A stretch of 36,481 nt of DNA from Candidatus Zixiibacteriota bacterium. Lineage in GTDB: Bacteria; Zixibacteria; MSB-5A5; RBG-16-43-9. The stretch is from the NCBI GenBank assembly GCA_022865345.1, contig JALHSU010000016.1:1-36481 (forward strand), in the 5' to 3' direction. Below, piece by piece: positions 19,419 through 21,162 of the stretch. How positions within the stretch are numbered: position 1 is the stretch's first letter; every line of letters starts with the position of its first letter. Made by a program: the position numbers and the translations under genes. The notes beneath the pieces are model-generated. The model saw only the letters and a program-made list of their open reading frames with translations, had not been told where the DNA came from and searched no databases.

Positions 19419-19732
19419 ACTTTTTGCAGCGGAAACCTTTCCTATAGGTCCACTTCTCGGACAAGTTTACAGTTGAAAAAGAAGGTGGAACAGGCATCTT
19501 GCCTGTTCTTTAAAAGTGCGGAGAGACCACCTGACCCAGACTCTAAAACCCTCGTAGGCGGGGCTCCCAGCCCCGAAATGCAGATTTTTCAGAGTTCTCA
19601 TACAAAATCTTGACCTAATCTTTCTTATAAATACTAAAAAAATAACTTGCCAAGCCTTAAAGGAGGAGTAAATTATAGCCAACAAAAGCTTTTCTTAACT
19701 TAAAATACCCTGACTTGAGGAGGGTTAAAATA
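19419..19732. other. Intergenic region with REP fragments
   Basis: No gene is seen. A GGAACAGGCA/TGCCTGTTC hairpin lies at 19487-19509, and a half element of the CTCGTAGGCGG family at 19551-19574 (CTCGTAGGCGGGGCTCCCAGCCCC). After 19580 the repeats stop and the sequence turns AT-rich, coinciding with the approach to the AAA/TOPRIM pair. A weak -35-like TTGACC (19610-19615) has no convincing -10. Confidence 0.55.
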
Positions 19733-20704
19733 ATGATAAAAAATTTGAACATTCAAAACTTTAAATCAATACAAAATCTCGAGTTAGATTGCAAAAAAAT
19801 AAATGTTTTTATTGGTAAGCCGAATACTGGCAAGTCAAATGTTTTAGAGAGTGCTGGGATTTTTTCCCTCCCATATGCAAAACTGGAAGAACTGGTTCGA
19901 TTTGAAAAGGACATGTCTAATCTATTTTATGACCAAGACTTAACCAAGAGGATAAAAATATTTTCTGAAGGTTTGCAGTTTGAAATACAATCTGTAAAAG
20001 GAATGTTCATAGGTTGGGGTCAGCAGAAAGCGGATGACCAAGGGATTTTTCATTTTAATTTCGATTTTGACTATGGAGGCAATGGGAAGTTTTCATCTAA
20101 CGGGATTTCTCCTTTCAAATTTTATAAATTTGAGGTAATTGATGATTTCAAGAGTCATGAACCTGGTTTTCTTCGTCCTCCTAAAGGAGAAAATCTTCTG
20201 ACGCTTCTTCAAACTAACAAGATTCTGAAGGAATTAGTGAAAGATATATTAAGTGAATTTAGACTCAGGATCGGCTTTCGTCCTAAAGAAAGACAATTGG
20301 AAGTAGTGAAGGAAATTGAAGATGTAATAATTTCTTATCCATATCCTATGGTTTCAGATACTATACAACGAATTATCTTTCACCTTGCCGCGATTGAAAC
20401 AAATAGGCATTCCATTATAATCTTTGAAGAGCCCGAGGCTCATGCTTTTCCTTATTATACAAAGTTTCTTGCCGAAATAATAGCCAGGGATGAAACCAAT
20501 CAATATTTCATCTCTACCCACAACCCTTATTTTCTGCTATCTTTAATAGAAAAGTCACCAAAAGATGATATTGGTATCTTCGTTACTTATTTTAGGGATT
20601 ATCAGACCAAAGTTAAAATCTTAAGTCAAGAAGAATTATCCGAAGTACTCGATCTTGATATAGATATATTCTTTAACCTTGACAGATTTGTAGAGGGAGA
20701 ATGA
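19733..20704 (+). CDS. AAA-family (OLD/SMC-like) ATPase
   Basis: A 323-residue ABC-type ATPase of the AAA_15/AAA_21 kind. The N-terminus IKNLNIQNFKSIQNLELD leads to Walker A GKPNTGKSN (28-36). Walker B is IIIFEEPEAHAFP (228-240), and the H-switch is FISTHNPYF (259-267). The signature region reads VSDTIQRIIFHLAA (207-220), with Asp where Gly is usual. There is no TOPRIM domain in this chain, but the next gene, overlapping by four bases, appears to supply one. This recalls OLD-type and PARIS-type defence systems. ATG 19733 is preferred over the in-frame TTG at 19715 because GAGGAGGG sits eight bases before it. Codon use looks more AT-rich than the neighbouring cvpA and mutS2. Confidence 0.82.
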   Translation: MIKNLNIQNFKSIQNLELDCKKINVFIGKPNTGKSNVLESAGIFSLPYAKLEELVRFEKDMSNLFYDQDLTKRIKIFSEGLQFEIQSVKGMFIGWGQQKADDQGIFHFNFDFDYGGNGKFSSNGISPFKFYKFEVIDDFKSHEPGFLRPPKGENLLTLLQTNKILKELVKDILSEFRLRIGFRPKERQLEVVKEIEDVIISYPYPMVSDTIQRIIFHLAAIETNRHSIIIFEEPEAHAFPYYTKFLAEIIARDETNQYFISTHNPYFLLSLIEKSPKDDIGIFVTYFRDYQTKVKILSQEELSEVLDLDIDIFFNLDRFVEGE

Positions 20705-21162
20705 TATACCTGGAGTGCAAACCTGATAAGGCCTTAGTCAGCGCCATTGGTATTCCCAGTAGAGAAATAAGTCACGAGAGAGGAAAGACAAAAGTTTGCA
20801 AAAAATTAGAAAAGTACAACAATTCTAAAGGTCTAGTTGATGAAGACCCTTTTGGCACTCAACCCAGGTATATCAGAAAGCTAAGAGTCCATTCAAATAA
20901 ACATAGTGTAAAAATCTTAGAGGATGAAACGAATAATAATTATCTGATTGTATTGTGCCCAGCATTAGAAGGATGGGTATTAGAAGCAGCTAGAGAAGCA
21001 AAGATTGATATTTCTGAATACGGCTTTCCTCCCGAACCTAATCGATTTCATAAGGCAGTAAATACAAGACTTAAAAATTTCGAAAGGCTATTAGAGGATT
21101 TGATTAAACAAAAAAGCAAGATGATAATAACCTTAGAAGGATTCTTAAAAGGAAAAATTTGA
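20701..21162 (+). CDS. Small TOPRIM-like partner of the AAA ATPase
   Basis: A 153-residue protein not matched to a named family by eye. The N-terminus IYLECKPDKALV (E5, D9) resembles the TOPRIM first strand with its catalytic Glu, and GLVDEDPFG (44-52, D47 and D49) resembles the DxD strand. The rest is helical with a charged tail, and LIVLCPALEGWVLEA (85-99) may be a further core strand and helix. Its ATG overlaps the ATPase stop (ATGA), so the two are made together and likely form a complex. If the TOPRIM reading holds, this is a nuclease switched by the ATPase, as in OLD proteins but split. Very short for DUF4435/AriB, so it is not simply PARIS. Confidence 0.6.
   Translation: MIYLECKPDKALVSAIGIPSREISHERGKTKVCKKLEKYNNSKGLVDEDPFGTQPRYIRKLRVHSNKHSVKILEDETNNNYLIVLCPALEGWVLEAAREAKIDISEYGFPPEPNRFHKAVNTRLKNFERLLEDLIKQKSKMIITLEGFLKGKI

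Follow-up and report, generated by a model that had tools for sequence, protein, structure and literature searches.

A Candidatus Zixiibacteriota genome carries two overlapping genes, one for an ABC-type ATPase and one for an unusually small TOPRIM-like protein, which form a recurrent, conserved and co-inherited two-gene unit in bacteria and archaea. From the fold of the small protein, its conserved residues and the family matches of the ATPase, we judge that the pair is probably a minimal split OLD-type abortive-infection module comparable to PARIS, AbiL and MADS3-4. The association of an OLD-ABC ATPase with TOPRIM is of a broad kind that includes PARIS, Gabija, retron and Menshen forms (PMC10568477, PMC12796447, PMC12839542, PMC10952713), to which a further source adds AbiL and MADS (PMC12409363).

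Gene layout and distribution

The window, the whole stretch of DNA analysed, is 36,481 nucleotides long. Its features bearing on the pair are as follows:

19647..19676, + strand: promoter-like element ahead of the pair (TTGCCA, 16-18 nt, TAAATT/AATTAT), interpreted as belonging to the cvpA leader
19733..20704, + strand: ABC-type (OLD/AAA_15-AAA_21) ATPase, 323 aa (Pfam, PADLOC, fold); proposed sensor and antitoxin-like keeper
20701..20704, + strand: ATGA shared by the ATPase stop and the TOPRIM start (sequence)
20701..21162, + strand: mini TOPRIM protein, 153 aa (AF2, VIA-align, invariant residues); proposed metal-dependent nuclease effector

The ATPase reading frame yields 323 aa from the ATG at 19733, and an alternative TTG start at 19715 would extend it to 329 aa. 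The four-base overlap reported in the initial annotation was recovered from the window ORFs, which share ATGA, and the ATPase and TOPRIM genes are likely to be translationally coupled through it. GC content is 34-36% within the pair versus 41-46% in 500-base blocks away from it. The region had been called a repeat-free insert, and that description holds: inverted repeats are absent, and direct repeats are limited to three short ones of two copies each. Sixteen bases separate the end of the pair from the start of the downstream ORF, which we take to be cvpA and which is present in 10 of the 12 genomes searched (source genome included). The promoter-like element scored 9/12 in a promoter scan that by itself was not above chance (8 sites versus 5.5 ± 2.7 in shuffles); it aligns, largely conserved, in congeners G001 and G002. 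Between genes, before the pair, these two congeners also share a short GC-rich palindrome-like text with the window (19553-19576; CGTAGGCGGGGCTCCCAGCCCCG).

The ATPase carries the Walker A motif GKPNTGKSN at residue 28, FEEPEAH at 231 and STHNPYF at 261; these positions, and E5, D47 and D49 of the small protein, are correct as first annotated, and an ABC signature-like SDTIQR at 208 is added here. Pfam assigned it to AAA_15 (1.2e-18) and AAA_21 (3.5e-9). Over residues 1-288, the best PADLOC model was AbiLi (1.6e-16), followed by ATPase-Toprim (1.9e-15), AriA (4.4e-15), GajA (2.7e-14) and NsnB (5.7e-14), and NCBIfam returned the retron Eco8 effector and MADS3 (1.1e-7) with scores well below the model cut-offs. 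The AF2 model, mediocre at pLDDT 69, resembles SMC/Rad50/PtuA/GajA head folds (Z 13-15), and the chain has no TOPRIM part.

The small gene was found at 27 loci in total: the window and congener G002, the Geoglobus ahangari provirus GahPV1, seven more genomes identified by title (Dadabacteria, Dehalococcoidia, Spirochaetota, Aenigmatarchaeota, Freyarchaeota, Thermoguttaceae and Limisphaera), 13 more from the Freyarchaeota genome's phylum (where 14 of 227 genomes have the small gene) and 4 more from the Dehalococcoidia genome's phylum (where 5 of 400 have it). The former phylum we take, from the genome title, to be the Asgard archaea. In the window's phylum, the genomes with the ATPase and those with the small gene are the same two out of 132. 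Weak matches (E 0.01 to 1, 18 genomes) were left uncounted, as the profile search did not confirm them. That the small gene is a chance ORF is ruled out by protein conservation across the 27 homologous loci.

A recognisable ATPase gene adjoins the small gene in 26 of the 27 loci. The exception is L117, where the first codons of an ATPase gene run directly into the later portion of the small gene (1363-1869); the contig measures at least 1.8 Mb, and this remnant is likely a real deletion. Counting it, six loci are broken: G002, L092 and L114 have the lesion in the small gene, L086 and L115 in the ATPase gene, and some of these may be assembly errors. The ATPase is cut by a contig edge in L030, L088 and L094. 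In G002 the small TOPRIM gene (L002, 1262-1749) is interrupted at an A-rich stretch with a slippery-type heptamer (A AAA AAT), which leaves two overlapping ORFs; the cause may equally be inactivation, an error of assembly or frameshifting.

Searches of plasmids (three queries) and of IMG/VR viral contigs (four scans) yielded no confirmed relative of the small protein, and a single-sequence scan of genome contigs gave no lead. With the ATPase as query, the viral contigs yielded one weak relative (L083, 32% identity over 90 residues), on an 8,131-base contig in which the small protein was not found. An ATPase match on a Parabacteroides plasmid was dropped, its neighbourhood looking unrelated.

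Fold and active-site residues of the small protein

No family was assigned to the 153-aa protein by Pfam, PADLOC, NCBIfam or PHROGs, and searches of the PDB by sequence or profile returned solely unrelated weak matches. AF2 (alignment of 8 sequences) gave a model with pLDDT 93.1 and pTM 0.86, whose predicted N-terminal topology is beta-alpha-beta-alpha-beta, with E5 following strand 1 and D47 and D49 ending strand 3. Foldseek of this model against the PDB and BFVD found none at E ≤ 0.001. VIA-align, a structural second look at Foldseek's own 1,000 top PDB chains, placed OLD, Gabija, PARIS or retron Eco2 in 15 of the first 16 PDB entries (Z 9.1 to 5.1), a ranking that excludes no family outside its listed entries. 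The best was the OLD CTR 6nk8 (Z 9.1, rmsd 3.4, 138 of 153 residues aligned), followed by other OLD CTRs, GajA, PH0156 (2p62, unclassified), PARIS chains (8ux9, Z 6.5; 8v46, Z 5.9) and retron Eco2 (Z 5.5 and 5.1); by the tool's own warning, Z under 8 may reflect a common arrangement, and the four entries above 8 are all OLD or GajA. The first entry of a different named fold stood at rank 17 (Z 5.1).

Seven residues (E5, C6, D9, H25, D49, L89 and E90) are invariant in all 21 intact homologues, and D47 is kept in 20, being E in L029. The resulting signature is VEC-x2-D, an invariant His, DxD-P and LE-x-W. The metal-binding or catalytic residues given for Bp OLD are E400, E404, D455, D457, T506, E508 and K562 (PMC6755086); E5, D9, D47, D49 and E90 correspond to E400, E404, D455, D457 and E508 by order, spacing and element rather than by residue-level superposition. 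In the sequence alignment, no conserved counterpart of K562 or T506 is apparent: across the 21 homologues no C-terminal Lys/Arg is invariant, and no Thr stands two positions before E90, so that the small protein may be a TOPRIM with weak nuclease activity or none. The predicted fold and the conserved acidic residues support assignment of the small protein to the OLD-type TOPRIMs, in keeping with its first description as TOPRIM-like.

At the sequence level, divergent Asgard members appear to form a bridge to known systems: 3 of the 21 homologues match PADLOC mad4 (4.8e-4, 0.036 and 0.042), and one of these also matches PADLOC AriB (5.5e-5, over 68 residues). The window protein itself has no AriB or mad4 match. 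Among the 21 homologues, DUF4435 and RloB (PF13707) found none at E ≤ 1, Pfam DUF4276 found none, and Pfam DUF3226 matched one (0.0075). Alignment with hhalign to home-made sets of OLD (17 or 14 rows), DUF4276 (5 rows; p 0.0064) and RloB (1 row) sequences gave weak, partly in-register matches, a convincing sequence link being absent, and these alignments were not used as evidence. Left out of the sets were L043, L067 (no usable ORF) and duplicates, among them L050-L052 and L059. A RloB-family TOPRIM gene (L068, 6.5e-42) occurs in another genome of the same class (G039).

Allele divergence and genomic neighbourhoods

At one and the same site, the window genome (G000) and congener G002 carry ATPases that are 62% identical and small proteins whose two alignable pieces are 48 and 51% identical, versus 95% for the putative cvpA. 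Fourfold-degenerate sites agree at 27 of 79 positions in the pair and at 63 of 93 in cvpA, the only coding control in this comparison. Within the ATPase gene, DNA identity drops from about 90% to about 50-80%, and it rises again in the final codons of the small gene. The ATPase tree supports a trio of the window, G002 and Dadabacteria sequences (98/97) and does not resolve the order among them. Because the pair has diverged where cvpA is conserved, and because of this tree, its alleles are not simply vertical; they were probably replaced, or acquired separately, at the one site.

Congener G001 has the cvpA leader and the same promoter-like element, with the pair absent apart from a 53-N gap; on account of that gap, true absence of the pair from G001 is likely rather than proven. 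In GahPV1 (L023, 5020-7174), the pair lies between two HxlR-type regulator genes that are 58% identical to each other, and in the sister viruses GacPV1 and ThalV2, which lack the pair, homologues of this regulator lie beside a homologue of the adjoining gene gp13. The pair behaves as exchangeable cargo. The available text of the paper on Geoglobus viruses (PMC10919331) contains no words on ATPase, AAA, defense or toxin and none beginning with nuclease-.

Some loci have defence-type neighbours. The pair of L095, seen in L109, lies on the same strand as, and downstream of, genes matching Cmr1, Cmr4 and Cmr3; the pair of L025 is followed by an N6 DNA methylase; and on the contig of L092 (L106) a C5 methylase lies about 4 kb from the pair. 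By eye, the surroundings look like housekeeping in the window, L024, L027 and L029. The neighbour survey covered 80 ORFs around 14 Asgard loci with no control and names families rather than members; as it is uncontrolled, we claim no enrichment of defence genes, and the neighbours are suggestive only. The L109 contig (G177, 93-6599) displays a type III-B (Cmr) CRISPR operon and then the ATPase-TOPRIM pair on the same strand. About 1 kb from the Spirochaetota pair lies a gene of the RNA-repair nucleotidyltransferase family RlaP (L026 2641-3435, 3.2e-86).

Carriage by a provirus, together with the bicistronic layout, would also suit a toxin-antitoxin or addiction unit that stabilises mobile DNA (a provirus or a chromosome segment) through the same ATPase-holds-TOPRIM biochemistry, with no sensing of viruses. 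Neutralisation assays have indeed shown antitoxin and toxin behaviour for AAA-TOPRIM_OLD pairs (PMC10440598), and in G002, L092 and L114 the small gene is broken while the ATPase remains open. Nonetheless, the type III-B CRISPR and methylase neighbours and the unlike alleles at one site suit immunity at least equally, and the named relatives are defence systems, so we regard the addiction reading as rather unlikely.

The proximity of the pair to cvpA in the window is not general: homologues are not always next to that gene, and neighbourhoods vary between lineages. A housekeeping companion of cvpA was rejected, since none of seven cvpA-bearing relatives outside the genus has the pair within 1,500 bases before cvpA and G001 apparently lacks it as well. 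A cellular role of another kind, derived from OLD as in Cran1 or from RNA processing as in the TOPRIM protein RNase M5, would gain from the possibility that the cvpA operon promoter drives the pair in the window. Cran1, a cell-cycle ATPase of Sulfolobales, is a precedent for co-opted archaeal OLD proteins, but it is one chain that includes the TOPRIM domain (PMC12796447). With occurrence so sporadic (2/132, 14/227 and 5/400 genomes), neighbourhoods that differ by lineage, frequent decay and carriage by a virus, a cellular function seems improbable. Least probable of all is a restriction-like, DNA-cutting pair that destroys invader DNA with no host death, as in Gabija: the fold comparison ranks the TOPRIMs of OLD and GajA, which cut DNA, highest, but a helicase gene is absent beside the pair in the window, and among named sequence families a divergent member matches AriB, a tRNase, best.

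Proposed mechanism and known systems

We return to the split abortive-infection module as the preferred reading. In PARIS, an AriA hexamer sequesters AriB, and a viral trigger frees AriB to cut tRNA (PMC12409363); in AbiL, the toxic effector is a TOPRIM_OLD protein, and neutralisation assays validate toxin-antitoxin behaviour for AAA/TOPRIM_OLD pairs (PMC10440598). Since architecture, fold and metal ligands match, the same logic of holding and release is the best guess here. By analogy with PARIS, AbiL and NetFlax, the ABC ATPase would bind the 153-aa TOPRIM protein and hold it inactive. Infection or another insult would change the state of the ATPase, and the TOPRIM protein would be freed or activated, as in its relatives. 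Once active, it would cleave nucleic acid with two metal ions, the candidate targets being tRNA (as for AriB) or DNA (as for OLD and GajA). Growth would then stop before the invader finishes, which would amount to abortive infection if toxicity and defensive role follow those of the relatives.

More tentatively, and with somewhat less than even confidence, the pair may form a distinct, undescribed class within split OLD immunity, one whose TOPRIM effector stands alone and is unusually small. Such a class would be commonest, among the sampled phyla, in Asgard archaea, with transfer to bacteria and to pleolipovirus-like proviruses of archaea. It might then exclude rival viruses in the provirus and act as an extra effector at one type III-B CRISPR locus.

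The initial annotation called the pair possibly undescribed; none of four family libraries names it and no description was found in the literature searched, within which the word stands. A catalogue of ABC-ATPase conflict systems by Krishnan et al. 2020 reportedly exists and is a likely place for a prior listing. If our reading is true, the pair is a compact, cross-domain addition to the ATPase-TOPRIM immune systems, and its 153-residue effector offers a simple setting in which to study the control of a TOPRIM nuclease by an ABC ATPase, and the target of that nuclease. The split, PARIS-like layout would also reach archaea and an archaeal virus, class 4 OLD being bacteria-only in the data set of PMC12796447.

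PARIS had been put forward as the split form. It is a two-gene system, but not the sole one: AbiL and the AAA/TOPRIM_OLD toxin-antitoxin pairs also consist of two genes, the association recurs in MADS, and split ATPase-TOPRIM pairs are thus already known besides PARIS. Like PARIS (AriA-AriB, class 4 OLD), the present pair has separate adjacent genes for an ABC ATPase and a TOPRIM protein, its ATPase matches the AriA model, and the fold of its small protein matches PARIS chains of about 305 residues (8ux9, Z 6.5; 8v46, Z 5.9), which we take to be AriB. Unlike PARIS, its TOPRIM protein is 153 aa long, half of the matched chain, the window protein falls outside the AriB family (matched by 1 of 21 homologues), and the pair is present in many archaea.

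With MADS mad3-mad4, the likeness lies in the MADS3 model, which matches the window ATPase below cut-off (1.1e-7), and in the 110-position mad4 model, which matches 3 of 21 homologues (best 4.8e-4) and not the window protein. MADS is a larger, methylation-linked system, whereas the present pair stands alone. AbiL (AbiLi/AbiLii, RloB) shares the bicistronic AAA and TOPRIM arrangement and supplies the best PADLOC model for the ATPase, but a RloB match is absent in the 21 homologues. The NetFlax AAA-TOPRIM_OLD toxin-antitoxin pairs are likewise bicistronic.

OLD classes 1 and 2 (GajA) have in common with the small protein a TOPRIM domain with a helical C-terminal part (138 of 153 residues on the Bp OLD CTR 6nk8) and the acidic residue pattern. 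They differ in being one chain, versus separate ORFs in the window and related loci, and in having mostly VEG where the present family has an invariant Cys after the Glu (VEC); H25 is invariant in the latter, and no conserved K562 equivalent is apparent in its alignment. Unlike Gabija, the present pair has no GajB gene beside it. By the sequence features compared, the pair would work like PARIS or AbiL, yet it is a member of neither.
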